From: Haloferax litoreum
GTDB lineage: Archaea > Halobacteriota > Halobacteria > Halobacteriales > Haloferacaceae
Length of the DNA: 64,000 nucleotides
Direction of reading: 5' to 3'
NCBI RefSeq assembly: GCF_009674605.1
Contig: NZ_WKJO01000001.1
Span: 434,001 to 498,000 of the forward strand
Shown here: positions 4,523 through 21,056 of the stretch, in pieces
How positions within the stretch are numbered: the stretch's first letter is position 1
Layout: each line of letters opens with the position of its first letter
Position numbers and translations under genes: made by a program
Notes under the pieces: generated by a model
The model's database searches: none
What the model saw: the letters and a program-made list of their open reading frames with translations, nothing else
Told to the model about the DNA's origin: nothing

Positions 4523-6438
4523 CCGAGTTTGACACCCCAATCGACGACCGACGAGTCGACCACGTGCGTTCGCTCTCGGTCCTCGACAGAGCACTGTACG
4601 CGCTGTTCGCTCGGCACGTCGATTCGTCGCGGCACGACCGAGACCGCCGGCGCTACCGTGGCACCGACCTGCGGGTGAGTTTCGACTTGTATCTCGCACG
4701 CACGTACGGTCTCGCGTGGCTAACGGGGGCGTTCGTCGCCCTACCGACGGTACTCGTCGTTCTCGCAGTCCCCGACGGAACCATCGACGGTGCGTTGGAC
4801 GTGCTTCGTACCGTCGTTCCACTCGTCGATAACGTCCCAGTTCCCGTCGTTCCACGCCTCCCCGTCGCGGTGCTGGTCGCACTCGGTGTGGTGACGGCGA
4901 CACGGCACGCCGTGCTCGTCGCCGCCGGCCGCTATCTTGGCTGGCGGGCCACTGCTCGTCGGGAGAACATCGAACGGACACTCCCCGGTGCCGTTCGGTA
5001 CCTCCACGTCCTCTCGTCGGGGAGCGACGGTCCACGCGAGATGCTCAGGCGCGTCGCCGAAACCGACGCCTACGGCGAGACGGCAGTCGCCTTCCGAGGC
5101 GTCCTCAACACGGCATCGTTGACAGGGAACGTGAACGAGGGACTCCGACGCGTCGCCCGCGACACGCCTTCAGAAGGGATGCTCTCGCCGTTTCTCCTGA
5201 AGTTCCGAGAGCACGCGGGGCAGGGGGAAGACGCCCTCCGAAACTACCTCCGCATGGAGAGTCGGATGCTCGGTCACCGACAGGACCGTGCCCGTGACCG
5301 CGCAGCGGGATTCCTCGAACTCCTCGCAGAACTGTTCATCGTCCTCCTCGTCCTTCCGTCACTCCTCGTCATCGTCCTCACGGTGATGAGTGTCATCGCA
5401 CCCGGTCTCTCGACGCAGGTCGTCACACCGGTCGGCGAGACGACCATCCGGGGCGTCGTCGTCTACGCCAGTGCGGCGTTCATCGTGGGCGTGGGACTCG
5501 CCGCCAGTCTCTTGATTGCTGGCCTCCGGCCACCAGACCAGTCCATCGAGTACGAGCGACCACCGACGGCACTCGAAACGCTCGGTACGACACTCACGAA
5601 CCCCGCCAGTGCCGCAGTCGTATTCGTGTTCCCCGCACTCGTCGTCGCCGGAATCGCTGGCCTCGCGGGGACAGACGTAGTCGGCACTGCACTCGCTGGG
5701 TACGTCGCGTACGCGACTCCAGTCGGTATCGTCGGGGTTCGACGTGCCCGCATCGATGACGCGAAAGACCGTGAATTGAAAGACTTCGTCCACGCCGTCT
5801 CGGGACACGTCAGCCTCGGTCGCCCCTTCGCGGCGGCCGTCGAACACGTCGGACGCGACGTCGACCTCGGCCCACTCGACGCCGACGTCGCCGACCTCGC
5901 ACTCAACCTCAGACTCACTGCCCCGAGTGCGGGCACGGACGTGAATCTCCGAACTGCCGCCCTCGAACGCTTCGTCGAACGTGTTGGAACACCGATGGCC
6001 GAACAGACCATCGGCCTCGTCGTCGGTGCACTCGACGGCGGGAGCGACACGGGAACCGTCTTCGACACGCTCCAGACGGAGATTGGTCGCCTCTACCACG
6101 AGAAACGCGCCCTCCGCTCTGGACTCCTCGTGTACGTCGCCGTCGGGTGGACGACTGCACTGCTGGTCGTCGGTATCACCGTCGCCGTCAACGTCCACGT
6201 CTTCGACGGATTCGCACAACTCTCGTCGCTCTCGACGACAGGGTCGTTCGCCCTCGACGCGGGTGCGGTCGACTTGACCCGTGACCGGTACCGAATGTAC
6301 GTCGTCACGCAGGCGACGATGCTCGCGTCTGGGTGGTTCGCCGGCACAGCGAGTCGCGGTCGGTACGAAGCGCTCCTCCACTCCGCCGCCCTCGTCACCG
6401 TGTGTTACCTCGTCTACGCAGGCGGTGGTCTGATATGA
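4519..6438 (+). CDS. pilC: Type IV pilus platform protein (PilC/TadC, T2SSF family), 639 aa
   Basis: A polytopic membrane protein that anchors the pilus assembly ATPase and guides pilin insertion. It has two T2SSF-type cytoplasmic domains (around residues 150-260 and 400-520), with membrane segments near 70-90, 105-135, 265-300, 310-335, 360-410, 545-570 and 600-639. The GTG start overlaps pilB (GTGA) and the stop overlaps the next gene (ATGA). This is an unbroken operon of seven genes. No prepilin peptidase gene is in the window, so processing would depend on a peptidase encoded elsewhere. Confidence 0.88.
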   Translation: MTEFDTPIDDRRVDHVRSLSVLDRALYALFARHVDSSRHDRDRRRYRGTDLRVSFDLYLARTYGLAWLTGAFVALPTVLVVLAVPDGTIDGALDVLRTVVPLVDNVPVPVVPRLPVAVLVALGVVTATRHAVLVAAGRYLGWRATARRENIERTLPGAVRYLHVLSSGSDGPREMLRRVAETDAYGETAVAFRGVLNTASLTGNVNEGLRRVARDTPSEGMLSPFLLKFREHAGQGEDALRNYLRMESRMLGHRQDRARDRAAGFLELLAELFIVLLVLPSLLVIVLTVMSVIAPGLSTQVVTPVGETTIRGVVVYASAAFIVGVGLAASLLIAGLRPPDQSIEYERPPTALETLGTTLTNPASAAVVFVFPALVVAGIAGLAGTDVVGTALAGYVAYATPVGIVGVRRARIDDAKDRELKDFVHAVSGHVSLGRPFAAAVEHVGRDVDLGPLDADVADLALNLRLTAPSAGTDVNLRTAALERFVERVGTPMAEQTIGLVVGALDGGSDTGTVFDTLQTEIGRLYHEKRALRSGLLVYVAVGWTTALLVVGITVAVNVHVFDGFAQLSSLSTTGSFALDAGAVDLTRDRYRMYVVTQATMLASGWFAGTASRGRYEALLHSAALVTVCYLVYAGGGLI

Positions 6439-7163
6439 CTCGTCCCGTGCCTTCGGCTGTTCGTGCCCAATCGAACGTCGTCGGCGCCGCCCTCTTGCTC
6501 GGCATCGGTGTCGTCGCAATCGGTCTGTTGACAGCGAGCGTCGGCACACTCGTCGATGCACAGGTCACCACAGCGGACGCCGACGCTGCGACGAACGGAT
6601 TCGCATCTCTCAGAGACGGTGTGTTCGCGGGAGGCAATAGCACGCATCCGGTTCGCGTCTCCGACGGACAACTCTCCCGTGTGAACCGTACCGTCCGGGT
6701 CGTCGCCGAACAGGGAGCAAACAGAACCTACGACGCCGACGGGTACGTCGCCACGTTCGGTGACCACCGAATCGCGTTCGTCGGCGGGGCCGTAGTCAGG
6801 GGTACAGGGAACAACTCTCGACTCGTCACGCCCGTCCCATTCTCCATCGCTGGTGACGCGGCGTTCCTCCCACTTCCGACGCTGACAGCATCGTCAACAG
6901 ACGGCGGGGGACTCGATGGTGGGTCTGTGCTTCGGGCGCGGACCACCCGACGTATCGACGACTTCCCGAGCGACGAATACGCCATCGCCGTCGAGACGAC
7001 GACGCCACGCGCGTGGGAACGAGCGTTCCAACGTCGCGGGTTCAATGCAACCCAGACAGACCTCGACGGCGATGGTATCCCGAGTGTCGTCGCAACCGCC
7101 CCTGACGAACGGACACTCACGGTGGCAACGTACGACCTCACGGTGGTGGTCGACCGTGGCTGA
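6435..7163 (+). CDS. Pilin-like protein 1 of the pil operon, 242 aa
   Basis: The ATG at 6435 overlaps the pilC stop (ATGA), which sets the start. A short positive leader ends in RAQSNV, directly followed by one membrane segment (about residues 15-38, VGAALLLGIGVVAIGLLTAS). A large extracytoplasmic domain rich in Asn-X-Thr/Ser sites and beta-strand patterns follows. This is the architecture of archaeal pilins and minor pilins: a type III-like leader, a hydrophobic helix and an outside head. I infer a pilin or pseudopilin role from this and from the operon; no family is identified with certainty. Confidence 0.7.
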   Translation: MTRPVPSAVRAQSNVVGAALLLGIGVVAIGLLTASVGTLVDAQVTTADADAATNGFASLRDGVFAGGNSTHPVRVSDGQLSRVNRTVRVVAEQGANRTYDADGYVATFGDHRIAFVGGAVVRGTGNNSRLVTPVPFSIAGDAAFLPLPTLTASSTDGGGLDGGSVLRARTTRRIDDFPSDEYAIAVETTTPRAWERAFQRRGFNATQTDLDGDGIPSVVATAPDERTLTVATYDLTVVVDRG

Positions 7164-7719
7164 CGCACGTGGGTCGTCGAGTCGTTCGTGGACCGGGGGG
7201 CGACAGTCCGACTATCGAGGGATGGTTCCCGTCGTCGGCAAAGCACTCGAAGCGGCCATCGTCGTGCTGTTTATCGGCCTGTTGACCACCGTCATGTTCG
7301 GTGGGGTCGTCCCCGACCACCGTGACGCAGTTGCGCACGAACTCGCAGAGCGAACACTCGCGACGGCGACAGAGAGCATCGAAGAGACTGGCACGGTTCC
7401 CGACTCGACAGTCCGTGGACAGCGACTGACGACAGTCGATATCCCGCGGTCGATTCGGGGGAGCACCTATCGAATCGAGTACGACCAGAACGCGTCGTTC
7501 GGCGACGACCCGAACGCGACGACACCCGCGCTGGTCCTCGACCACCCTCGCGACGTATTCGACCGTCGTATCCCAGTTACGCTCCCTGATCCGGTGAACG
7601 TCTCGGGGACGTGGGACAGCGGAACAGACAGTGTCGTCCGCGTCGTCGTCGAGGACGACGAGACGACGCTCGAACTCGTGAACGAAGGTGCCACGAGTAC
7701 CGGAGGCGGCGATGGGTGA
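7156..7719 (+). CDS. Pilin-like protein 2 of the pil operon, 187 aa
   Basis: A GTG at 7156 overlapping the previous stop is the best start, because the frame is in operon phase and the N-terminus then reads VADARGSSS. After a basic leader ending DYRGMVPVVG comes one membrane helix (KALEAAIVVLFIGLLTTVMF, about residues 30-50). An acidic extracytoplasmic domain (HELAERTLATATESIEE) follows and ends in a Gly/Thr-rich tail. The design is the same as that of its neighbours. The function is inferred from context only. Confidence 0.65.
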   Translation: MADARGSSSRSWTGGRQSDYRGMVPVVGKALEAAIVVLFIGLLTTVMFGGVVPDHRDAVAHELAERTLATATESIEETGTVPDSTVRGQRLTTVDIPRSIRGSTYRIEYDQNASFGDDPNATTPALVLDHPRDVFDRRIPVTLPDPVNVSGTWDSGTDSVVRVVVEDDETTLELVNEGATSTGGGDG

Positions 7720-8428
7720 CGGACTCTGGTCCGACCACTGGTCGGCTCCACCGAGGGGGTCTAGAGGCCAGACGACACTCGCTGGGCTGGCGGTGGCACT
7801 CGTCCTCCTGACGACAGTCACCGCCGGAAGCATCGTCGCCGCCGACCGAGCACTCTCGGACGCGACCGATACCTCACTGGACCGTGCTCGAGCAGACCGT
7901 GCTGCGACCGCACTCGTCACGGACTCGCCGGTAGTCACGTCGCATGGTTACGTCGACGCGCAACGCGCGAACGAGACGAACGCGACCGAACTCGCGGCCG
8001 CGATCCCGACACTTCGTGGCGTCGCGTTCAGTGTGCGGTTCGATGGCGACGAAATCGCGGCACGAGGAGACGTGAGCGATAGCGTCCACGTCTCACGGGG
8101 TGTCGTCGTCGCCGACTATCACACCGATAGTGAGAGCATCGACGTGGACGGCGAAGACGCGACGACACTCGACGGGAGGACCGGGCGAATCGAATTCGAC
8201 GTGGACCCTGGAGCCAACACGACAGTTCGAACGATTCGCGTCGGCGACAGAGTCGTCCTCCACCGACCGACCGGTATCGAAGGAACACACAGCGTGAACG
8301 TCTCGTCGCACGCGGCTCCCGTAATCCGTGTCGACGTGGCCGGGCCTGCACCCGCTGGGACAGTGACGGCCACGGCCCGTGTCTTCGAGACACGCACTGG
8401 TCGCATCGAGGTGGCTGTCGATGCGTGA
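7712..8428 (+). CDS. Pilin-like protein 3 of the pil operon, 238 aa
   Basis: The ATG at 7712 overlaps the previous gene by eight bases. The leader ends in SRGQTTL, followed by a membrane helix (AGLAVALVLLTTVTAGSIVAA, about residues 24-46) and a domain of about 190 residues predicted to lie outside the cell, with many Asn-X-Thr sites. The RGQ motif just before the helix is shared with proteins 4 and 5, which supports a common signal and a common family. Probably a minor pilin or pilus-associated protein. Confidence 0.67.
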   Translation: MGDGLWSDHWSAPPRGSRGQTTLAGLAVALVLLTTVTAGSIVAADRALSDATDTSLDRARADRAATALVTDSPVVTSHGYVDAQRANETNATELAAAIPTLRGVAFSVRFDGDEIAARGDVSDSVHVSRGVVVADYHTDSESIDVDGEDATTLDGRTGRIEFDVDPGANTTVRTIRVGDRVVLHRPTGIEGTHSVNVSSHAAPVIRVDVAGPAPAGTVTATARVFETRTGRIEVAVDA

Positions 8429-8870
8429 GCGAATCCTGTGGGCGATGGCCGAACTCGTCGGTTGCCGTCGGTCCGACGCCCGTGGCCAACTCTCGTTGAC
8501 GGTGGTCGAAGCGACCATCGTCACCCTCTTCGTCCTCGCCGTCGCCGCGAGTTTTACGTTGACACCGACGCCAATGCAGACAGCATCACTCGACCAGCAG
8601 GCGACCGACGCCGCGGCACTAGTCGCGAGTGTACCTGCAGACGCCCCCGGAACGCTTCTCGGCGTCGCGTGCGAGTCATCCGGAGACTTCGACACCCGGG
8701 CAGAGCAGTTGCACACCACTGCGTCGACTGGTCTCCCAGATGGTGCGTTCGTCTGGCTCCGAACGAGCGTCGGGTCGGTTGGCACACCACCTCCGGATAG
8801 CGCACGGGTCGGTACCGCGTCCGCCGTGGTCCCGCGGTGCACCGCGACGTTGGAGGTGTGGTACCCGTGA
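8421..8870 (+). CDS. Pilin-like protein 4 of the pil operon, 149 aa
   Basis: The ATG at 8421 overlaps the upstream stop by eight bases. The leader contains DARGQLSLTVVEATIVTLFV: RGQ-L-S-L with a Glu at position +5 of the mature helix, as in many pilins. The helix is followed by a domain of about 100 residues with four cysteines or fewer. The Glu near the start of the hydrophobic segment is the clearest pilin-like trait in this set. The role is inferred. Confidence 0.67.
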   Translation: MRERILWAMAELVGCRRSDARGQLSLTVVEATIVTLFVLAVAASFTLTPTPMQTASLDQQATDAAALVASVPADAPGTLLGVACESSGDFDTRAEQLHTTASTGLPDGAFVWLRTSVGSVGTPPPDSARVGTASAVVPRCTATLEVWYP

Positions 8871-9394
8871 GTCCTCGCTGTTCCGACTGCTCACAGAGCG
8901 ACCAGCGCGGACAACTCGTCCTCGTCTCGGGAGCAGTCGTCGTCGTCGCGTTGTTCGCACTCGTCCTCGTCCACGCGCAACTCGCGTACGTCGGCGCGTC
9001 GACGACGCCACCCGTCACGGACGTCGCGGCGTCGACTGAAGATGCCGTCGAGATGGCGACAGCAGGCGTCGCTGGACGATACGATTGGCCCGCGAGGAGG
9101 TCGGCAGTCACCGACTTCAGGTCACGTCTCGACCCTGCACTCGTGCGAATCGAACGAGCACACACGAACGGTGGCGGGGCCTCGCTTACGACGAACCAGT
9201 CGGCCGCCGCCGGGTGGGCGCTCAGAGACTGCCCCCGCGGGACGTACCGAGACTTCGGTCCGTGTGTCGCAGACGACGGCGTCGTCGTACAAGAACGGGC
9301 AGGCGAGACCACAGTCGTCGCCGTCGCCGTGGACATCGCCATCGGCACGCCTCGCTCACAGACCGACCTGACACTCGTCGTTCGTCCGGAGTGA
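8867..9394 (+). CDS. Pilin-like protein 5 of the pil operon, 175 aa
   Basis: A GTG start at 8867 overlaps the preceding TGA by three bases. The leader is Cys-rich (SPRCSDCSQS), then QRGQLVLVSG leads into one membrane helix (AVVVVALFALVLVHAQLA, about residues 23-42). The outside domain ends with an RDC/FGPC cysteine pair that could form a disulfide. It is the last gene of the operon; the next promoter lies after 9400. Confidence 0.65.
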   Translation: MSPRCSDCSQSDQRGQLVLVSGAVVVVALFALVLVHAQLAYVGASTTPPVTDVAASTEDAVEMATAGVAGRYDWPARRSAVTDFRSRLDPALVRIERAHTNGGGASLTTNQSAAAGWALRDCPRGTYRDFGPCVADDGVVVQERAGETTVVAVAVDIAIGTPRSQTDLTLVVRPE

Positions 9395-10854: not shown

Positions 10855-11220
10855 TTAGGCGCTGACGATTTCGTCTTCGAGGCTCGCGACAGCACCCAGC
10901 ACCTCGTCGATTTCGTCTTCGGGAACGTCGAACTCCTCCAGCGCGTTCTGGAGGTGCGTGGCAGTCGCCGCGAAGTCCTCGTGTGAGAGGCCCAAGTGCT
11001 CGTGTGCCTCCTGCATATCTGCACCCGTATACTCGACGGGACCACCAGCGACGGAACTGATGAACTGGGTCTGGTGCGCTCGCTGCGCCTGCATGTCCGT
11101 GTCCTCGAAGTAGTGGGCGAGGTCGTCGTCTGCCAGCATCCGGTCGTAGAACTCGTCGACGACGGCGGAGATTGCCTCTTTTCCACCGAGTCGTTCGTAG
11201 AGAGTTTTATTGCCCGACAT
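10855..11220 (-). CDS. Truncated haemoglobin (group I type), 121 aa
   Basis: A 2-on-2 globin that binds haem and O2/NO. TrHbN-type members oxidise NO to nitrate or carry O2. The family pattern is clear: TLYERLGG at the start, FYDRML with the B10 Tyr (Y25), the E-helix segment HQTQFISSVAGGP, and proximal His73 in EAHEHLGLS. The length is normal. It is transcribed divergently from the H-NOX gene at 11400 across 179 bases, so one control region may serve an NO-handling enzyme and a gas sensor together. The start at 11220 gives the canonical N-terminus. Confidence 0.92.
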   Translation of the reverse strand: MSGNKTLYERLGGKEAISAVVDEFYDRMLADDDLAHYFEDTDMQAQRAHQTQFISSVAGGPVEYTGADMQEAHEHLGLSHEDFAATATHLQNALEEFDVPEDEIDEVLGAVASLEDEIVSA

Positions 11221-11399
11221 TAACCGGATATTAAGTCACGCTCTGATAAGTCTACCTCAGCGTGTAAATCATTTGATTGAAAATATTTTATACGATTACA
11301 TAACATATTCTTCCCAGCGTGATAACGACCACTTTCCCCGTGTCCACACCCCGGGCACCCCATCGAACAGCGACACGAGCACTCGGAGGGCGTTGAGTC
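11221..11399. promoter_or_regulatory. Divergent control region between globin and H-NOX genes, with three AGCGTG elements
   Basis: AGCGTG occurs at 11260-11265 and 11316-11321 and inverted (CACGCT) at 11238-11243. The first two form an inverted pair with a 16-base gap. An AT-rich core (AAAATATTTTATAC, from 11280) gives a TATA-like site. Three copies in under 90 bases in a shared promoter suggest an operator for a common regulator. This is inference from repetition only. Confidence 0.4.
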
Positions 11400-11951
11400 G
11401 TGCACGGAATCGTCCTCAACCAGTTGAAGGACTTCGTCGTCGAGACGTACGACCGCGAGACGTGGACGACGTTACAACAGGAAGCAGGTCTCCCCGGTAA
11501 ACTGTACGTTCCGGTGACAGAGTACCCCGACGAAGACGTTCTCGCCCTCGTCGAGACGGCATCCGAACTCACGGAGATACCCGTTCCCGACTTGCTCGAA
11601 GCGTTCGGCGAGTTCCTCGTCCCACCACTGCTCGAAACCTACGGCGTCCACGTCGACAAAGACTGGACCGGACTCGAACTCATCGCCAACGTCGAACGGT
11701 ACATCCACATCGCGCTTCGAGCGAAACAGGTTTCGACGTACACGCCACCCGAACTGGAGTCGGGGTGGCGAGACAACCATACGGTGAGCGTCGTCTACCG
11801 GTCCGACCGCCAACTGTGCCACCTCGCGAGAGGCATCATCACCGGTGTCGGCGACCACTTCGACGAACCGTTCGACGTCGACGAACCGGTCTGCATGCAC
11901 GACGGCGACGACCACTGTGAACTCGTCGTCCAACACGCCGAAGACGCCTGA
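11400..11951 (+). CDS. H-NOX (HNOB) haem-based NO/O2 sensor, stand-alone, 183 aa
   Basis: H-NOX domains hold a five-coordinate haem through one histidine and bind NO (or O2, in some anaerobes), passing the signal to a partner kinase, cyclase or chemoreceptor. Here the N-terminus MHGIVLNQLKDFV is typical. The proximal ligand is H103 in ERYIHIALRAK, and the propionate-binding YxSxR motif is present as Y133-S135-R137. The protein is a single domain, so it must act through a partner. The GTG at 11400 gives the conserved first residues. The receptor at 12162, which has no outside domain, is the obvious candidate partner. Confidence 0.92.
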   Translation: MHGIVLNQLKDFVVETYDRETWTTLQQEAGLPGKLYVPVTEYPDEDVLALVETASELTEIPVPDLLEAFGEFLVPPLLETYGVHVDKDWTGLELIANVERYIHIALRAKQVSTYTPPELESGWRDNHTVSVVYRSDRQLCHLARGIITGVGDHFDEPFDVDEPVCMHDGDDHCELVVQHAEDA

Positions 11952-12054
11952 CGAATTCCATCACGTGGTCGTTTCCGGCCGTTCGACCACCGATTGGCCG
12001 GGAGAGAGATGCCCGAGTATCGACTGAACGCGGGAACTTCACTTTGGAAAAAGT

Positions 12055-12137
12055 ACCCGTTTAGACCCGTTTAACCCGCCATATAATGCCAGAATAGTTT
12101 GAAATACTGATTGTCAATACTGTGCGAAGGTTTATAG
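12055..12137 (+). promoter_or_regulatory. Upstream region of the chemoreceptor/che operon: tandem ACCCGTTTA repeats and TATA boxes
   Basis: ACCCGTTTA is repeated at 12055-12063 and 12065-12073, then ACCCG follows at 12074-12078. The period is 10 bases, one helical turn. ATATAAT lies at 12081-12087. A second TATA-like TTTATAG at 12131-12137 is placed correctly for a transcript that begins almost at the ATG at 12162. In-phase repeats of this kind often bind oligomeric regulators. No known consensus is matched. Confidence 0.45.
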
Positions 12138-12161
12138 TATCAGATGAGACATTCGTGGCAT

Positions 12162-14327
12162 ATGGTAGATATACTCGGTCTCCTTCTACCTAGGTTCATA
12201 CGCCGACGGTATGCACTTCGGTTCGGAGTGGTGCTGGGCAGCATCGGCGTCATCGTCGGTGCGGTGGGACTAGGTGTGGGGCGAACGACGGCGTACCAAA
12301 TTCCGACAGATATCGTCGCTGCTGCCGCCGGCGGTATCGTAGTGAGTGGGTTCCTCGGGGGGTTGATGGTCAGAAGCACGATGAAGTCGGTCAGTTCCAT
12401 CAACGCGAAGACCGACGAGATGAGCGAGGGGAACCTCGACGTCGACGTCGAACAGGGACGAATCGACGCTGTCGGACGGCTTTCGGCGTCGATTGCGACA
12501 CTCCGCGACACCGTCCAAGAGCGACTCGAACAGACGACGTCGGACCGCGAACGGGTCGAGAACAGACTCCGCAAAGTCGAAGCAGTCGCAGACCACTACA
12601 GCGGCGACCTCGAAGCGGCACTCGACGACCCGACCGTCCGACTCGATACGACACCGCCGAACGAGGCGATGGCGGAACTCGCCGTGGCGACGAACGACGT
12701 TCTGGCGGCGCGCAAAGAGGACGCAGACGAACTCGAAGCACTCCGTGGACAACTGGACGCAGTCCAGAACGAACGCGACAGACTGGACACCGAGAACCAG
12801 CAGTTGCGGGCGATGGCGATGGAGTACGCCGGAGTTCTCGAGAAGTGCGCCGAGGGAGACCTCTCTCAGCGCATGGACGAAGACGTCGAGAACGAGGTTG
12901 CCGCCAGGTTCGCCGCACAGTTCAACGAGATGATGACCGAGTTCGAGAAGACGACGGTCGAAGCCGAGAACTTCGCGAAGGAAGTCGCGACCCTGAGCAA
13001 CGAAGTCACCGTGAGCGCTCGCGAGGTTCGAGAAGGGAGCGAGCAAGTCTCTGGTAGTCTCCACAGTATCTCCGGGGTTGCAGAGACACAGTACGACAAC
13101 CTCGAATCCGTCGCTATCGACATGAGCAACCTCTCTGCGACTATCGAAGAGATCGACGACTCGTCGAGCGACGTGGCAGACATCGCCCAACAGACGGTCG
13201 AAACTGGCCGCGAAGGGCGAGAGGCCGCCACCGAGGCGATCAAGGGGATGAAAGAGATCGAACAGGAGTCCGTCGACACGGTCGAAGAGATCGAGCGACT
13301 GGAATCCGAAGTCCAGCAAATCGACGACCTCATCGACTTCATCCGGGAGATTGCAGAACAGACCAACATGCTGGCATTGAACGCCAACATCGAGGCGTCC
13401 CGCGCCGGCGAATCCGGACAGGGTTTCGCCGTCGTCGCCCGCGAAATCAAGGAACTCGCAGAGGGAACCAAGGACGCCGCAGCAGACATCGAGACGCGAC
13501 TCGAAGAGATTCAGTCGCAGACCTCCGAGACAGTCGAGGAAGTGCGCGACACGCGAGAGCAAATCGCCCAGCACACCGACTCCGTCGAGAACGCGGCGGA
13601 GGCACTCAACCAAATCGCCGAAAACGCACAGGAAACCAACACCGGTGTGCAGGAGATTAGTTCGGTGACGAGTCAGCAAGCGGACGCGACGCAAGCAGTC
13701 CTTTCGGCAGTCGACGACGCGACCGAGATTAGCGCCGAGACGGTCGAAGAGGCGAGTGCCGCGGCGACTGGTGCCGAAGAGCAAACCCGCGCACTGAGCG
13801 CAGTGTCGGACAGTGCGAGTGCGCTGGCGTCGCAGGCGAGCAGGCTGAACGAGACGCTCGCTCAGTTCGAGACCGAGATGGCCGTCACGCTGGAGACCGA
13901 GGAAGACGCACCCGACGGCGACGACGACGACCACGCAGATGTACAGTCCCGCGACGACGAGTCGACCGAATCGGTCGCGGACGCGTCCGACGAACCAGCG
14001 GACGACGTCCAGTCCGACGCGCAGGACCCACTCGCAGACCCCGTCGAAGATGGAGTCGTCGAAGACGCGCCCGTGCCACAGGAAGACGGCGCTGCCGGCG
14101 ACGCCGACGCCGACGCCGACGCATTCGACCCGTTGGGCGGAGACCCAGTCGACGAAATCCCAGAGCCGGACGAATCCACGTTCGCGTTCGACGGGGAACC
14201 CGGCGACGACATCGCCCTCGACGAAATCGCGGACGAAGTCCCCGAGACCGAGGACGCTGACGCAGAAGCAGACGACGAGAACGAAGCAGAGACGCAGGAG
14301 TCACCAGTAGACAACACCACAGAGTGA
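12162..14327 (+). CDS. Methyl-accepting chemoreceptor with HAMP domains but no extracellular sensor, 721 aa
   Basis: The N-terminus has two membrane segments (about residues 20-45 and 50-72) joined by only a few residues, so there is no outside ligand domain. HAMP-type linkers follow (about 65-125 and 205-260). Then comes a standard signalling coiled coil with the hairpin tip [24 protein letters not shown] and flanking Glu/Gln methylation-type heptads. About 130 very acidic residues end the protein. The TATA box at 12131 supports the ATG at 12162 (leaderless); an ATG at 12144 is the alternative. The input is probably cytoplasmic, with the H-NOX encoded just upstream as the prime candidate. 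First gene of the che operon. Confidence 0.88.
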
Positions 14328-14373
14328 TGATGCATTCAACGACCGCGTACCGCTGCTCACAGAGGGGGGGACG

Positions 14374-14877
14374 ATGAACGAGCAGTCGGTCGACATCGAC
14401 GAGGGCGACACCGTCGCCCCCGAGTCGGTCATCGAGTTCCTCGAGTTTCGTCTCGACGGAAACCGGTACGGACTGGAGTTGGGACGGGTCGGACAGGTCA
14501 TCTGGAGACCGGCGACCACTCGTGTCCCGAACGCCCCAGCGGGCATCTATGGGTCGGCGACCGTCGAAGGCGACGTGGCAGTCGCCGTCGACACGTACGC
14601 CGTCGTCGGAAGCGACCGGCCGTTTTCCGACCCAGAGGACGCGTACCTCGTTCTCTTGGACCGTCACGACACGCCGCAACTCGTCGGCCTCCTCGTCGAG
14701 GCAGTCGACGGTATCGAACGGCACCACGTCGACACGGTTTCACCACTGGCCGAGGGAAGCGCGCCACTCGACGACCGCTGGTTCAGAGCGACGATTGGTG
14801 ACGACGAGACACCCGACATCCACGTCTTCGATAGCCACCAACTCCTCGCCGCCATCCACCCACTGGAAGCACGATAA
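14374..14877 (+). CDS. cheW: CheW-like coupling protein, 167 aa
   Basis: A CheW-fold scaffold links receptors to CheA. The core begins IEFLEFRLDGNRYGLELGRVGQVIW and includes GIYGSATVEGDVAVAVDTYAV, corresponding to the usual ILNLRG(K)-VIPVIDL strands. It is a divergent member, with an acidic N-terminus of 20 residues and a longer C-terminus. It lies 46 bases after the receptor and is followed by cheY in the same direction. The divergence suggests it is tuned to this receptor rather than shared with another array. Confidence 0.78.
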   Translation: MNEQSVDIDEGDTVAPESVIEFLEFRLDGNRYGLELGRVGQVIWRPATTRVPNAPAGIYGSATVEGDVAVAVDTYAVVGSDRPFSDPEDAYLVLLDRHDTPQLVGLLVEAVDGIERHHVDTVSPLAEGSAPLDDRWFRATIGDDETPDIHVFDSHQLLAAIHPLEAR

Positions 14878-14941
14878 CACGACTGAGAAACCACACAGAC
14901 AGATGATCACAACCGAACCGAGGTTCACGTAGGACGCACAC

Positions 14942-15319
14942 ATGTCAATCGGAATTCTAATCGTCGACGACTCAAGCTACATGCGAAGTAGGCTGAAGAG
15001 CGCGCTCGACGATGACACGTACGAAATCGTCGACGAAGCACAGAACGGCGCGTGGGCAGTCCAGAAGTACAAAGAACACGGCGACGACATCGACATCGTC
15101 TTGATGGACATCGTGATGCGCAAGGCAAACGGTGTGAAGGCAACGGCCGCCATCAAGCACCTCGACAAAGACGCCCGCATCATCATGTGTACGAGCGTCG
15201 GACAGCGCAAGAAGATGGAACTCGCCGCCCGGGCAGGCGCAGACGGGTACATCACGAAACCGTTCGACGACGACGAAATCGTCCGCGCGATAGAGAGCAT
15301 CCTCGCCGACGAATCATGA
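14942..15319 (+). CDS. cheY: CheY-type single-domain response regulator, 125 aa
   Basis: A stand-alone receiver domain with all the active-site residues: acidic pair D9/D10, phospho-acceptor D56 (VLMDIVM), T84 (MCTSVG) and K106 (ITKPF). The length is normal. It is the likely diffusible output of the CheA in this operon. The output target is not encoded here, as no archaellum motor gene or CheF is in the window. CheC-type proteins downstream would remove its phosphate. Confidence 0.92.
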   Translation: MSIGILIVDDSSYMRSRLKSALDDDTYEIVDEAQNGAWAVQKYKEHGDDIDIVLMDIVMRKANGVKATAAIKHLDKDARIIMCTSVGQRKKMELAARAGADGYITKPFDDDEIVRAIESILADES

Positions 15320-15374
15320 GACACACAGAGGAACCGTCCACGACAGCCGTCGTCAGTACTCGCGGGAGGCCACC

Positions 15375-18300
15375 GTGAGCCGAAACGATGAGTTCGTCCG
15401 CGAGACGCGGGCGTCCGTGCGGCAACTGACGAATGGACTCGTCGAACTCGAACGCGACGGGGGCAGTCGGGAACTGGTCGACGACTTATTCCGGACCGCG
15501 CACACGCTGAAGGGCAACTGCGGAATGGCCGGCCTCGACGGTGCAGGCAGACTCGCCCACGCAGTCGAAGATTTCCTGAGCGGCCTCCGCGACGGGTCGC
15601 TGACGCCCAATCCCGACCTGATAGACGCGTCACTCGCGGCAGTCGACGATATCGACGCGATACTCGACGAGTGGCGCGAGGGAGACGAAATCAAGACCGA
15701 CCCCGAGTCGACCGTCTCCACGTTCCGGTCGGAGATGCAACGGTACCGAGACCAACCGGGGACCAACGACCCGATGTCGGCACAGGACGCAGACCCGGAG
15801 TCGATTTCCGACCCACCCACCGACGAGTTCGACCAGACGGTGGTCGACGCACTCGAATCTGCGAGCGGATTCGACGACCTGGAAGGATTGCTGGCCGACA
15901 TGGACGACCCAGACGAGGAGTCGGCCGACGAACAGTCCCGCTGGGGAACGTTCGACCAGCGCGGCGCTGGCCCTCGGGACGAACCGCACGCGAGCGCCGA
16001 CGTTCCCGACGGTCAGGACGGCCCTCCGGAAGCGCTGGGTCCGTCGTCCGGACCGATGGACGACTTCGACGCCATCAAGAGCGGCGTCGAGACGGACGAC
16101 GTGTCCTCGCTCGACGACGAACTCGTCGAGACCGAGTTCGGAGAGTTCGACGACGACGACGAACTCTCGATTCAGGACCTCATCGAGGGCGAAGTCGCTG
16201 GACCCGACGTCGTAGAGGAAGACGCCGACCACCAGTCAGATTCTGCGGCAGACGACGACCAGTCGGTGGACTCGTCGGCCACCACAGCCACCGACAGCAG
16301 AAACGACGCAATCCACCCCGAGGACTTCGGCTACGAACCGGCCGCGACGTCCGACAGCGACGCCGAGTCGGTGAGCGGGACGGGCCAGACGGCGGACGAA
16401 CACGCACCGGACCAAGTGTCGGACGAACCAGCAGGCGTGACCGCCGACAGTTCCGAAGCGGCGAACCCGTTCGAGGGTGCCGACGTCGTCGACCCCGACG
16501 AACCGGTGGCAGACGAAGGGGAAGTGACTGCGAGCGGAGTTCGAGACGACACCGAAATCTCGTTCCCCGACGGCAAGACGTTCGGTCCCGGCGGCGAGGA
16601 GTCGTCTGTCGATGACGACCCAGCGCCCGGAGTCACTGCCGACGAGGGTTCGACCACGCAGTCGGACGACGAGTTCGTAGGACAACCAGACGCCGCGTTC
16701 ACAGAACAACCAGACGACGAACCCGCGTCCCCAGCCGAATCCGGCGACGGCGAACTCGACCTCTCTGAAGAGTTCGCAGACGACGGACTGGACCTGCCGG
16801 ACGAGTTCTCAGACGACGACCTGAGCTTCGACGAGGACGACGATGCAGATGCGTTCTCGGACGACGACCTCGGCCTCTCCGAGGTACTCGGCGAAGACGA
16901 CCTCTCCGAGGGATTCGTAGACCACGATATCGGGGTCTCAGACGACCACGGCGGCGAAATCACCGAGGGTGAACCGGACGAGTTCGACGACGGCCTCGAC
17001 CTCCCCGAGGACTTCCTGAGTGGTGGAATCGAACTCGACGACGACGGTCGGGCGACCACAGACGTATCCGAGTCACAGGCCGACACTGACCTGTCGGTCG
17101 AACCCGGGGCGGCCGACGTCGACTTGCCGGACATCGACCTGCCGGACGTGGACGAACTCTCTGGGGAGTCTCTCGCCGGAGAGTTCGACGGTGACTCGGT
17201 CGCTGACGTCTCGTTCGAACGCGACGAACACACGATGGCGTTCGAGTCCCGTTTCGCCGAACGGTTCGGCGGAAGCGTCGGCGACGACAAAGTCCAACTC
17301 GTCCAGGTCGCGTCGGCGACGATAGAAGAGAGCAGTCTCGACGCCGCCAGATACCAGTCGAGTGGGACCGCGTCGTACCCACCAGACTTCGGCGAGACGC
17401 GCGAGAGCGACGAGATTCAGTCGCTCACGGTGGACGTGCAGAACGCAGACTCGCTGTTGAACCTCGTCGAAGAGCTCTCGCTGACGCAACTGCGCATCAA
17501 GCAGTCCGACGGCGAAGACATCGACGACCACCTGTCGGTGATGGACTCGGTGACGTCCGAACTCCGGCGCACAGTGATGAACCTCCGTCTGATGCCGCTT
17601 TCGACGGTCACTGACGGCCTCCCGCGCGTCGTCCGCGACATCGCCCGCGCTCAAGACAAGCGAGTCGCCTTCGACGTGTCCGACGAGGGTGTGGACCTCG
17701 ACCGGAGTATCGTCGAGAAACTCGGCGACCCACTCGTTCACCTCGTCCGCAACGCGGTCGACCACGGTATCGAATCACCGGACGAACGCGTCCAACAGGG
17801 CAAGCCACGCGAAGGAACCATCGAACTCCGTGCGTGGCGAGACCGCGAACGCGTCGTCATCGAAGTCGAAGACGACGGCCGAGGCATCAGTGCCGAACGA
17901 GTCCGTCAGCAGGCCATCGACCGTGACATCGTCTCCCGCGAGCGGGCCGAACGACTCTCACTCGACGAGGTGTACGACCTCGTCTTCGAACCCGGGTTTT
18001 CGACCACCGACGAGGTGACAGACGTCAGCGGCCGGGGTGTCGGGATGGACGCCGTCAGGCGGACCGTCAACTCGCTGGACGGAACAGTCGACCTGAAGAG
18101 CGAACCGGGGTCGGGAACCACCGTCCGCGTGCGCCTTCCGGTCTCAGTCGCCGTCGCGAAGATGCTCTTCGTCGACGTCGGTCCCGAGCAGTACGCGATT
18201 CCGGCGAGCGTCGTCGACGACGTCGAAGTCGTAGACGAGACCGACCTCCCGGGCGATGGAACGGTCGCCATCGAGTGGCCCGACCACGTCGCAGACTACC

Positions 18301-18596
18301 CCGAACACATCCCACTGCTCCGTCTCGGAGAAGAACTGGGTGTCGAGGACGAGACTGACGGCGCCGCCGACAGAGGCGACACCGACGACGGCGAACCGGG
18401 CGCCGGGAAGCGCGTCCTCGTCCGACTGGCCCCGGAGACGCGGAACGCTGCCCTCCTCTGTGACGGGGTGGACGACGCACGCGAAGTCGTCGTCAAACCG
18501 TACGAGAAACTGCTCGGTGACGTGCCCGGAATCAGCGGGGCGACGATGAGCGGGGATGGCACACTGGTGAACATCGTAGACGTGACTACACTATGA
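15375..18596 (+). CDS. cheA: CheA histidine kinase with an unusually long acidic linker, 1073 aa
   Basis: Domains in order: HPt with phospho-site H43 (FRTAHTLKGNCG); a linker from about 115 to 675; the dimerisation domain (SLTVDVQNADSLLNLVEEL to LMPLSTVTDGL); a HATPase domain with N box (LVRNAVDHG), G1 (DDGRGI), F (FSTTDE) and G2 (GRGVGMDAVR); and a CheW-like P5 domain to the end. The linker is roughly 550 residues of Asp, Glu, Ser and Pro and repeats short motifs such as GLDLPDEF, DLSFDEDD and DLPDIDLPDV. The usual haloarchaeal CheA is, from memory, about 650-700 residues. The GTG at 15375 starts the HPt correctly. It overlaps the next gene by four bases. Confidence 0.92.
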   Translation: MSRNDEFVRETRASVRQLTNGLVELERDGGSRELVDDLFRTAHTLKGNCGMAGLDGAGRLAHAVEDFLSGLRDGSLTPNPDLIDASLAAVDDIDAILDEWREGDEIKTDPESTVSTFRSEMQRYRDQPGTNDPMSAQDADPESISDPPTDEFDQTVVDALESASGFDDLEGLLADMDDPDEESADEQSRWGTFDQRGAGPRDEPHASADVPDGQDGPPEALGPSSGPMDDFDAIKSGVETDDVSSLDDELVETEFGEFDDDDELSIQDLIEGEVAGPDVVEEDADHQSDSAADDDQSVDSSATTATDSRNDAIHPEDFGYEPAATSDSDAESVSGTGQTADEHAPDQVSDEPAGVTADSSEAANPFEGADVVDPDEPVADEGEVTASGVRDDTEISFPDGKTFGPGGEESSVDDDPAPGVTADEGSTTQSDDEFVGQPDAAFTEQPDDEPASPAESGDGELDLSEEFADDGLDLPDEFSDDDLSFDEDDDADAFSDDDLGLSEVLGEDDLSEGFVDHDIGVSDDHGGEITEGEPDEFDDGLDLPEDFLSGGIELDDDGRATTDVSESQADTDLSVEPGAADVDLPDIDLPDVDELSGESLAGEFDGDSVADVSFERDEHTMAFESRFAERFGGSVGDDKVQLVQVASATIEESSLDAARYQSSGTASYPPDFGETRESDEIQSLTVDVQNADSLLNLVEELSLTQLRIKQSDGEDIDDHLSVMDSVTSELRRTVMNLRLMPLSTVTDGLPRVVRDIARAQDKRVAFDVSDEGVDLDRSIVEKLGDPLVHLVRNAVDHGIESPDERVQQGKPREGTIELRAWRDRERVVIEVEDDGRGISAERVRQQAIDRDIVSRERAERLSLDEVYDLVFEPGFSTTDEVTDVSGRGVGMDAVRRTVNSLDGTVDLKSEPGSGTTVRVRLPVSVAVAKMLFVDVGPEQYAIPASVVDDVEVVDETDLPGDGTVAIEWPDHVADYPEHIPLLRLGEELGVEDETDGAADRGDTDDGEPGAGKRVLVRLAPETRNAALLCDGVDDAREVVVKPYEKLLGDVPGISGATMSGDGTLVNIVDVTTL

Positions 18597-19246
18597 CAGA
18601 GATGAATCAATCAACGACGGGACAGCACCGAATCGACATCGAAAAGCTCGGCGTCTTGAACTATCTCGGCGAGTTGGGCGTCACCGGTGTCGAATCTCGA
18701 CTCGGAAAACTGGCCGGAAAATCCACCGCCGTCCGCTCCGAAGTCGTCAAAAACGGGTTCGTCGACGAGGACAGTGTCGACCTGGCGTTCCCGTCGGAGA
18801 AGCGACTCGGCGTCAGAGTCGGCCTCAACGGCGTTCCCCACGGGTGCATCCTCGTGTTGTTCCCGCCAGCGAGTGCGAAACGCGCCGTCCGAATGATGCT
18901 CGCAGATACCAACGAGGACGTCGCCGACGTGTCGAACGACATGGCGGTCAGTTCCATCGTCGAACTCGGTGGGATGGTCGCAAACGGGTTCCTCGACGCG
19001 CTTGCAGACACGTTCGACCAGCACATCGCGACGTGGCCACCGGTCACGCGAAATAGCCAACTGCCACAGATTATCGAGCGAGCAGTCACCGACGAAGACG
19101 ACAGAGGCCTCTACCTCGAGACGAAGTTCCACATCACGAGCCACGACATCGACGTCGAACTCTACTTGTTCCCGGAGAACGAGGTGTTCGTCGAGATTCT
19201 GAACCGCCTCGACATGGACACAGTTGCCGCGGGGGTCGAGTCGTGA
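18593..19246 (+). CDS. cheC: CheC-like protein lacking the ExxN phosphatase residues, 217 aa
   Basis: The fold is that of CheC/CheX/FliY CheY-P phosphatases. Two internal sites are expected, each with Glu-x-x-Asn. The first reads LGELGVTGVES (E27-x-x-V30) and the second IVELGGMVANGF (E-x-x-G). Both lack the Asn that positions the attacking water, so phosphatase activity is doubtful. It may serve as a CheD- or CheY-binding partner instead. The ATG overlaps the cheA stop, and the stop overlaps the next start (GTGA). Confidence 0.75.
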   Translation: MTEMNQSTTGQHRIDIEKLGVLNYLGELGVTGVESRLGKLAGKSTAVRSEVVKNGFVDEDSVDLAFPSEKRLGVRVGLNGVPHGCILVLFPPASAKRAVRMMLADTNEDVADVSNDMAVSSIVELGGMVANGFLDALADTFDQHIATWPPVTRNSQLPQIIERAVTDEDDRGLYLETKFHITSHDIDVELYLFPENEVFVEILNRLDMDTVAAGVES

Positions 19247-20541
19247 AGTTAAACGTCAACGCACTCGGCACGTTCTACGAGATGGCCCGCGAGGGTGCTG
19301 GACTCGCCGCGACGCGCCTGAACTCGATGTCGGAGTTCGATAGCCGTGTGAAAGTCACCCGACTCCACTTCACGCACCGCTCTGAGATTCGCAACGAACT
19401 CGACGACGGCGGCGAGAAAGTCGGGATTCGTGTCACCATGGACGGCGAACTCTCGGGGACCTCTCTCTTGTTGTTCGACCACGAGAGCGCACTCTCGGTG
19501 GCCGGCACACTCGTCGACGACGTGGACGACGAAGCGACCAACGAACTGGCGACGAGCGCCATCGTCGAACTCTGTCACATCATGAACAGTGGGTTCGTCG
19601 ATGGATGGGCCGACGTGCTGCAGGCGGAAATCGACGTGTCCGCCCCCGAGTACGTCATCGGCGACACGGCGACGGCGTTCATCGACGAGGACGAGTTCAC
19701 CAACATGCACGAGGAGTTGGCACTCGTCTTCCAGAGCCAAATCGAGACGACCGGGACCGAATTCGGGTTCGAACACTACCTCATCCCCGAACACGACTCT
19801 ATCTCTCGTCTCTTCGAGACGCAGACGGACGACGAGGGTATCGAGTACGAGAAACTCGCCGGGTTCGACCAGATGGCCCAGCACGGTGCCACCCGCGTCG
19901 CCGAAAACCTCACACGGATGACGAACATCGAGATGGGCGTCGACATCCGCCGTATCAACTTCATCTCGCTCGACGCCATCCCGGAGACGGTTCCGAACGA
20001 ACCACTCGTCAGCGTCGCGTTCAGTTTCAGTGGGACACTCGGCGGGTACCTCCTGTTCCTGTTCGACCCGAAGTCGGCGAACGAACTCGTCGCCGCCACC
20101 GTCGGCGAGTCTCCCGGCGGCGGACTCGGTGCCTTCGAGCAGGACGCCATCAAAGAGTTGAGCAACGTCATGACGAGTGGCCTCCTCGACGGGTGGGCGA
20201 ACATGCTCGACGCGACCATCGACCACTCGACGCCTGCCTACTCTCACGACATGGGTGCCGCAGTCGTCGACCCCCTCATCGTCGGTCTGAGCGAGGTTCA
20301 GGAGTTCGCATTCGTCTTCGACACGCGCATCCACGCCGTCGACAGGGAGTTCGACGTGGATATCTACGCGATTCCAGACGAGTCGGACCTCGAAGCGGCA
20401 CTGGACCGACTCGACGCCCGACGCATCGACGAGTCGCTGGAACACGACGTCGAAGAGACCGAGTTCGAAGCTCAAGAGTTCGACGCCGACGTCGTCGAAG
20501 AGATTGCGGCCGGCACGTTCGAGGAGGTCGACGACCTGTGA
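19243..20541 (+). CDS. cheC: Tandem CheC-like protein with two CheC units, 432 aa
   Basis: The protein is twice the usual CheC length (about 200 residues) and repeats the fold: TSLLLFDHESALSVAGTL in the first half matches GYLLFLFDPKSANELVAA in the second. Four motif positions are expected. They read FYEMAREG (ExxR), VELCHIMNSG (ExxH), FDQMAQHG (no ExxN) and KELSNVMTSG (ExxN). Only the last is complete, so the protein probably keeps one active phosphatase site against CheY-P. The GTG start overlaps the previous stop, and the stop overlaps cheD. Confidence 0.78.
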   Translation: MKLNVNALGTFYEMAREGAGLAATRLNSMSEFDSRVKVTRLHFTHRSEIRNELDDGGEKVGIRVTMDGELSGTSLLLFDHESALSVAGTLVDDVDDEATNELATSAIVELCHIMNSGFVDGWADVLQAEIDVSAPEYVIGDTATAFIDEDEFTNMHEELALVFQSQIETTGTEFGFEHYLIPEHDSISRLFETQTDDEGIEYEKLAGFDQMAQHGATRVAENLTRMTNIEMGVDIRRINFISLDAIPETVPNEPLVSVAFSFSGTLGGYLLFLFDPKSANELVAATVGESPGGGLGAFEQDAIKELSNVMTSGLLDGWANMLDATIDHSTPAYSHDMGAAVVDPLIVGLSEVQEFAFVFDTRIHAVDREFDVDIYAIPDESDLEAALDRLDARRIDESLEHDVEETEFEAQEFDADVVEEIAAGTFEEVDDL

Positions 20542-21056
20542 AGACGTTCGACTTCGGCGACGACGACGTGGAGTCGACTCGCGAAGAACGCCTCGTCGGT
20601 GTCTCTGGATATCACGTCACGAGCGAGGGCGAGACGCTCATCGCCTACGGCCTCGGCGCGTGCATCGCCATCGCACTCTGGGATACCGACAGCAAAGTCG
20701 GAGCACTCGCACACACACTCTTGCCACGGCAGGACACGGGTCTCGGTGCATCCTCGGGGAAGTACGTCGACGCCGCCATCCAGACGATGCTCCGCGAGAT
20801 GGTCGAAGCGGGCGCTGGGTACTCGACTATCGAAGCGCGACTCGTCGGCGGCGCGGATATCTTCGAACTCAAAGCGCTCGGCAAGGGTGTCGGCACGAAG
20901 AACGTCGCCGTCGCCCGCGAGGAACTCGACCGTCTCGACGTTCCCATCGTCGCCGAAGCGACTGGTGGCGAACACGGTCGAACCGTCGAGTTCGACACCG
21001 CGACCGGACGACTCGAAGTCACCACCGCACACGCTGACGACGTCGAAGTACTGTAG
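20538..21056 (+). CDS. cheD: CheD-type receptor glutamine deamidase, 172 aa
   Basis: CheD deamidates receptor glutamines and binds CheC. The signature GLGACIAIALWDTDSKVGALAHTLLP is present, with the nucleophile C42 and H59 at the usual spacing of 17. The third triad position, Thr six residues before the Cys, is Ala36 here. Activity may therefore be weak, or the protein may be mainly a regulator. The GTG at 20538 overlaps the cheC-cheC stop by four bases; longer readings extend into the previous gene and are rejected. It is the last gene of the operon. Confidence 0.87.
   Translation: MKTFDFGDDDVESTREERLVGVSGYHVTSEGETLIAYGLGACIAIALWDTDSKVGALAHTLLPRQDTGLGASSGKYVDAAIQTMLREMVEAGAGYSTIEARLVGGADIFELKALGKGVGTKNVAVAREELDRLDVPIVAEATGGEHGRTVEFDTATGRLEVTTAHADDVEVL

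Follow-up and report, generated by a model that had tools for sequence, protein, structure and literature searches.

A stand-alone H-NOX beside a sensorless receptor in a CheB/CheR-free Che cluster of Haloferax litoreum: a likely nitric oxide-responsive chemosensory array

Results

The stretch of Haloferax litoreum DNA analysed here (64,000 nucleotides, hereafter the window), which is part of a 3.56-Mb Haloferax genome, carries at 10855-21056 a cluster in which a truncated haemoglobin (trHb) gene and a stand-alone H-NOX gene precede a chemoreceptor and a core of Che genes. A preliminary description had proposed the H-NOX as the detached input domain of this receptor, within an array responsive to nitric oxide (NO) or O2 and devoid of CheB and CheR. 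From comparison with other haloarchaea, we found that the H-NOX/receptor pairing is recurrent, and the cluster is likely to be a second, dedicated chemosensory array that responds to NO through a separate haem sensor, detached as in rhodopsin-transducer pairs. The proposed gene set (trHb, H-NOX, a two-helix receptor, CheW, CheY, CheA, two CheC-like proteins, and CheD) was confirmed by Pfam profile matches, on which the domain identities of the window proteins are based, together with motifs and hydropathy, membrane helices being assigned from hydropathy alone. The features are as follows:

10855..11220, minus strand: truncated haemoglobin (trHb); PF01152 Bac_globin, E 2.8e-24, 86 bits; Y25 and H73
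11221..11399, no strand: intergenic region common to trHb and hnox; conserved AT-rich stretch TATTTTATACGATTAC, from an alignment of four Haloferax and Salinigranum
11400..11951, plus strand: stand-alone H-NOX, 183 residues; PF07700 HNOB, E 1.6e-32; H103, YxSxR, C140/C165/C173, L142
12162..14327, plus strand: receptor (transducer); PF00015 MCPsignal, E 6.5e-38; HAMP at 18.5 bits, below cut-off; acidic C-terminal tail
14374..14877, plus strand: CheW; PF01584, E 1.1e-13
14942..15319, plus strand: CheY, phosphorylatable Asp present; PF00072, E 9.5e-27
15375..18596, plus strand: CheA, 1073 residues; PF01627 (Hpt), PF02518 (HATPase_c), PF01584 (CheW); long acidic linker
18593..19246, plus strand: CheC-like protein 1 (CheC1); CheX at 23 bits, below cut-off; catalytic Asn missing (motif scan)
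19243..20541, plus strand: CheC-like protein 2 (CheC2), two domains; PF04509, E 9e-13
20538..21056, plus strand: CheD, deamidase family; PF03975, E 8e-25; conserved Cys and His

The receptor, CheW, CheY, and cheA genes are separated by gaps of 46, 64, and 55 bases, and three successive four-base overlaps join cheA, cheC1, cheC2, and cheD, as had been described. A motif scan found the phospho-acceptor His43, the N box, and the G box of CheA all intact. The second domain of CheC2 presents, at residue 301, the exact phosphatase motif D...E..N-x22-P, where [DS]...E..N-x22-P is what we take to be the CheC active-site motif; the same scan did not find it in CheC1 or in the first domain of CheC2. The longest open reading frame (ORF) of the receptor begins at 12144; however, since all five aligned relatives share the ATG at 12162, which stands just 3' of a conserved TATA-like box, 12162 is likely the start, in agreement with the preliminary description.

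The trHb gene is divergent from hnox, adjoins it in both Haloferax and Salinigranum, and occupies the cluster edge in two genomes of family f6. Its Y25 and H73 presumably act, as in the family, as the B10 Tyr and the proximal His. The earlier assignment of this globin as the detoxifying enzyme fits these cluster-edge positions, and trHb is a candidate NO/O2 detoxifying partner, although position is no proof of such a role.

The HNOB profile matched the H-NOX protein over almost its full length (positions 1-161 of 163; 113 bits against a cut-off of 25.5). The fold was confirmed by an AlphaFold2 model (pLDDT 88), whose best match in the PDB was the H-NOX of Shewanella oneidensis (4u99; Z 24.3, 182 residues aligned, root-mean-square deviation 2.4). 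TRAPP/Bet3 proteins also appeared among the fold matches, at Z ~9, far under true H-NOX, and a V4R match was rejected as a separate domain, since it overlaps the C-terminal half of the H-NOX. H103 and the YxSxR residues Y133, S135, and R137 are invariant in 29 relatives. Moreover, all 29 sequences of our H-NOX alignment (A1) have C140, C165, and C173, which line up with the cysteines of the S. oneidensis protein. The zinc ligands of H-NOX of that type are presumably three Cys and one His; the S. oneidensis His, which precedes the second Cys by three residues, is not conserved, and is Glu in the window H-NOX. Regarding the ligand, the distal pocket of the O2-binding H-NOX of Thermoanaerobacter has a Tyr placed nine residues beyond the one in YxSxR. 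This distal Tyr is absent from the window protein (L142) and from the relatives that keep H103 (V, I, L, F, or W). Because the distal position carries Leu instead, NO seems likelier than O2 as the ligand, so that from the dual NO/O2 proposal the NO part is favoured and the O2 part disfavoured.

The comparison covered 391 Halobacteria genomes, part of a larger class, with neighbourhoods read and a tree built for ~80 H-NOX genes; outside the window genome, genes were called by homology and a simple ORF finder. The H-NOX search of named genomes used a narrow alignment, a broader one being too diverse. H-NOX was found in 85 of the 391 genomes, and its tree has two groups with full support, of which group A keeps H103 and group B (39 sequences) has lost it. 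(Labels L, G, and f with numbers stand for comparison loci, genomes, and families, g65 for a genome group, and C1 for the contig of the window genome.) Within group A, the H-NOX gene is followed directly by a receptor gene on the same strand in 24 cases and accompanied by one within a Che cluster in 12 more; thus 36 of 44 scorable cases, spread over families f1, f3, f4, f6, and f7, show the pairing, against none of the 39 His-less group B genes. The latter adjoin a gene that, judged by its sequence and not by a profile, resembles ribose-phosphate pyrophosphokinase.

The partners of group A are also of a consistent kind. Two transmembrane helices only 6-12 residues apart were found in 29 of 32 receptors (one fragment counted) and no helix in the other three, while by hydropathy an extracellular domain was present in none of the 32. 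In contrast, receptors lying 2.5-4.7 kb from group B H-NOX have ~250-residue extracellular domains, the usual large kind. The window receptor has hydrophobic helices at ~29-47 and 59-77 of its open frame, ~11 residues apart and with no extracellular domain, and is one of three among the 16 receptors of its genome with a short interhelix loop. When its input half (residues 1-224 of the open frame) was searched against the 391 genomes, relatives at >=69% occurred only in the four Haloferax genomes with H-NOX; other matches were generic HAMP at 25-40%, and no close relative was found in any H-NOX-free genome. The preliminary description had named relatives of the receptor without H-NOX in most genomes as grounds for refutation, and this search gave no such result. 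These data indicate that the pairing is real, recurrent, and beyond chance, and that the H-NOX is probably the detached sensor of the receptor. The original proposal therefore gains strong comparative support (36/44 versus 0/39), while direct contact between the two proteins is something that we infer.

The invariant cysteines, aligned with those of S. oneidensis H-NOX, could also be read as a zinc/thiol switch, in which case the protein would chiefly sense O2, redox state, or thiols in place of NO. We consider this unlikely: the protein lacks the distal Tyr of O2-binding H-NOX, the cysteines are retained in most His-less proteins too and hence may be structural, and H103 is retained exactly where a receptor is present.

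Some further variants were observed among these H-NOX genes. In group B (L083, L085, L090-L108, and L111-L128; H-NOX at ~9.5-10.5 kb), H103 is replaced by Tyr, Val, Thr, Ala, and others, with the YxSxR-like residues and the three Cys mostly retained, so this group probably represents an H-NOX fold without the usual haem binding. Two tandem H-NOX, both with the haem histidine, stand before a single receptor at L054:9200-10310, L056:8943-10116, and L068:9828-11061, possibly forming, like soluble guanylate cyclase, a heterodimeric sensor. At L110:9826-11483, a group A H-NOX shares a four-base overlap with a PNPOx_N (pyridoxamine-phosphate oxidase-like) gene, a possible alternative partner. In L084, L086, and L088, the H-NOX-linked receptors have no membrane helix, which suggests an entirely cytoplasmic pair.

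Regarding the Che core, a CheC2 search across the Halobacteria followed by reading of neighbourhoods recovered Che clusters of the window make-up. Full H-NOX/receptor/CheW/CheY/CheA/CheC/CheD clusters were found in Haloferax, Salinigranum salinum, Halocatena marina, archaeon YIM A00013, Actinarchaeum halophilum, and two f6 genomes. None of them contains CheB or CheR, and three H-NOX-bearing Che clusters carry tandem H-NOX. A similar cluster in three g65 genomes, also free of CheB and CheR, has no H-NOX and a receptor with ~260-320 residues between its helices. In three other genomes (L159:3252-11094, L160:8576-16623, and L161:8642-17829), CheB/CheR-free clusters have a two-helix receptor beside a Bac_rhodopsin-family protein. 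The retinal lysine of these opsins is kept in two and lost in L161, matching the opsin-related proteins described previously (PMC4915679). Gas-vesicle GvpL/F genes lie near the opsin-linked clusters of L159 and L160. The 15 CheA of CheB/CheR-free clusters form one clade (100/100 support), separate from canonical haloarchaeal CheA, and because this single clade spans clusters with differing sensors, one Che lineage carries different inputs, namely H-NOX, an opsin, or an ordinary extracellular receptor.

The window genome has 16 receptors, one H-NOX, one CheB, one CheR, and two CheF. Its sole CheB (C1:2773607) and sole CheR (C1:2776713), by genome-wide search, and both CheF-family genes (C1:2777358 and C1:2779065) belong to a canonical cluster at ~2.77-2.79 Mb, together with CheA, CheW, another CheY/CheC/CheD, and archaellum genes. 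Since this complete che cluster, tied to the archaellum and holding the sole CheB and CheR, sits ~2.3 Mb away, the window cluster is the second Che system of the genome. As previously noted, no cheB, cheR, cheF, or archaellum gene lies in the window. The designation "without CheB/CheR" consequently holds for the cluster but not for the genome, and local loss was rejected as its cause, since all clusters of this CheA clade are without CheB/CheR, making the absence a lineage-wide trait of the Che type. Likewise, a loss of all methylation sites in the receptors of these clusters was unsupported for Haloferax, in whose receptors two methylation-type positions still carry Glu-Glu pairs, whereas most relatives show erosion. 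Because these pairs are kept, the canonical CheB/CheR may assist the window array in Haloferax.

CheF has been described as strictly accompanying che genes. A CheF match was absent in 8 of 14 genomes with the window Che type, all >=94% complete and including Halocatena marina and Actinarchaeum. No second copy came out of the CheC2 search for Halocatena marina, Actinarchaeum, and one g65 genome, a hint that the window type is their sole Che system. Two of the eight CheF-less genomes have another Che cluster (with CheB and CheR at L158 in G005; further CheC2 copies in G238), and therefore CheF absence alone is not decisive on output. Both G005 and G238 hold several Che clusters and no CheF-family gene anywhere. 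CheF connects CheY to the archaellum, and the region near the start of CheY helix 4 has been proposed as the CheF contact (PMC6718144). In our alignment of 22 CheY, this position is Glu in 8 of 8 canonical proteins versus Lys, Gln, or Ala in 8 of 8 H-NOX-linked ones; the window CheY reads GQRKKM where canonical haloarchaeal CheY reads GQ[ER]EKM, so the acidic alpha-4 residue is lost.

In this context, the cluster might be an ordinary extra taxis system, driving the archaellum through the CheF of the genome and borrowing CheB and CheR from the canonical cluster, which supplies all three in this genome; the Glu-Glu pairs of the Haloferax receptors would be in line with it. We regard this as possible although doubtful, considering the missing CheF matches, the acidic residue lost in every H-NOX-linked CheY, and the eroded methylation-type sites of most relatives. 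Because CheF is often missing and this residue is lost, CheY may have an output other than the archaellum. A wider proposal, which we advance tentatively and with slightly less than even confidence, is that these clusters make up a distinct haloarchaeal Che class, free of CheB/CheR, often without CheF and with interchangeable inputs (haem NO sensor, opsin, or ordinary receptor), that controls a non-archaellum process such as pili, aggregation, or buoyancy.

Within the genus, the Che/H-NOX module is present in 4 of 15 Haloferax genomes; Hfx. profundi (H-NOX at 98%) and Hfx. marinum are among the close relatives of the window strain. SnoaL and OsmC genes flank the module, which sets them 11 kb apart; in 7 of 10 module-less genomes they occupy the same site with ~1.1 kb between them, and thus the cluster is an accessory module in Haloferax. 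Such a patchy presence would also be expected if H-NOX and Che genes merely shared a mobile island with no joint action. This explanation is very improbable, as the pairing recurs across families with differing flanking genes and receptors of one kind, and is met once more in distant archaea.

Discussion

The array that we favour would operate as follows. NO would bind the ferrous haem of H-NOX, as predicted from the fold of the protein, its H103 and YxSxR, and the absence of a distal Tyr. The resulting change of shape would reach the receptor through direct contact at its cytoplasmic HAMP-like region, a step suggested because adjacency is conserved and the receptor itself is sensorless. Together with CheW and CheA, the receptor would form an array setting the phosphorylation of the cluster's own CheY, the CheC2 phosphatase and CheD would end the signal and adapt it in place of CheB/CheR, and the neighbouring truncated globin would probably clear NO. 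The ligand, the contact, the direction of the response, and the output are the parts of this scheme that we infer, starting from the gene content, the recurrent pairing, the receptor topology, the single CheA lineage, and the intact catalytic motifs observed.

A close functional parallel is given by the haloarchaeal sensory rhodopsin-transducer pairs SRI/HtrI and SRII/HtrII and by the pairs of opsin-related proteins with transducers, which likewise have a separate sensor gene beside a two-helix HAMP and MCP transducer without an extracellular domain; indeed, opsins serve the same CheB/CheR-free CheA clade as the window H-NOX. However, the window sensor is a soluble haem protein and not a seven-helix opsin, and its contact must be cytoplasmic instead of intramembrane, so by analogy the H-NOX/receptor pair would work like a rhodopsin-transducer pair without being a member of that group. 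In Tar4H of Thermoanaerobacter tengcongensis (PDB 1u4h, "methyl-accepting chemotaxis protein"; sequence match E 6.5e-12, fold Z 20.8), H-NOX is also a chemoreceptor input, but Tar4H is an H-NOX-MCP fusion that binds O2 via its distal Tyr, whereas the window H-NOX is a separate gene without such a Tyr. Free-standing H-NOX regulating a separate signalling protein is known from HnoX-HnoK of Shewanella and Vibrio and from Hnox1 of Legionella, S. oneidensis H-NOX being the closest solved sequence to ours, with the same three Cys. The bacterial stand-alone protein works in trans on a histidine kinase or diguanylate cyclase (PMC8846402), in contrast to the probable window partner, a chemoreceptor with a full Che core. 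Canonical haloarchaeal Che systems (CheW, CheY, CheB, CheA, CheR, CheF, CheC, CheD, and archaellum genes) have CheW, CheY, CheA, CheC, and CheD homologues in common with the window cluster, which differs by its lack of CheB, CheR, and CheF, its separate CheA clade, and its CheY without the acidic alpha-4 residue. We found no earlier description of H-NOX in haloarchaea in the open-access literature.

Several observations weigh against a dedicated NO array driven through the receptor. Eight His-keeping H-NOX have no neighbouring receptor, and H-NOX neighbourhoods are related by descent, with a tree that requires few state changes and therefore few independent gains of the pairing. Between the hnox and receptor genes lie 192 bases (210 if the receptor starts at 12162), which include a promoter-like box, and thus co-transcription is not required. 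Copper nitrite reductase, an NO source, is encoded in the window genome but has no match in Hfx. marinum, and Halocatena marina is not among the genomes listed with it. A tie between H-NOX and denitrification was itself rejected, since nitrite reductase occurs too widely (above cut-off in 208 of 391 genomes) and is missing from at least one genome with an H-NOX cluster, Hfx. marinum. Finally, in distant archaea H-NOX adjoins cheA and not a receptor gene, and might therefore act on CheA or on the whole array.

The latter cases come from distant phylum families, represented by metagenome-type assemblies (L203:3668-10152, L205-L207, L208:1261-7965, L209, and L210), with H-NOX in or beside che operons and multi-helix receptors. 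H-NOX lies between cheB and cheA in L203, L206, and L208, the gene order in L203 and L208 being cheW, receptor, cheY, CheX-like, cheB, hnox, and cheA. This independent association involves H-NOX without the three Cys and CheA that branch elsewhere in the CheA tree. Together with the direct action of bacterial stand-alone H-NOX on kinases such as HnoK (PMC8846402), this arrangement could mean that the window H-NOX serves the array through CheA/CheW or the array as a whole and not through the window receptor. We find this improbable, given that ~24 haloarchaeal H-NOX have a receptor as neighbour and no cheA closer than 10 kb and that these receptors are consistently sensorless.

If the reading favoured here holds, archaea would sense NO with the haem domain of animal soluble guanylate cyclase, deployed as a separate soluble protein in a chemoreceptor array, and the detached-sensor principle of rhodopsin-transducer pairs would extend to a gas. 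Moreover, as Haloferax is genetically tractable, the system would allow the study of a soluble sensor driving a receptor and of Che adaptation without CheB and CheR. It would also bring within reach of experiment the separate matter of a possible output other than the archaellum.

Beyond the cluster, the upstream part of the window (2225-9394) carries a type IV pilus-type operon (T2SSE ATPase, T2SSF, DUF7263, and DUF7261), in which the gene pair at 2225-6438, for a secretion-type ATPase and a membrane protein, resembles that of type IV pili. These genes were rejected as part of the cluster, being kept at the site in the Haloferax locus L198 without a Che cluster, and pilus genes were not found near the Che cluster in other genera. 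At 47571-49835, the window also encodes an ordinary receptor, with an extracellular domain, HAMP, and MCP, that is unrelated to the cluster.

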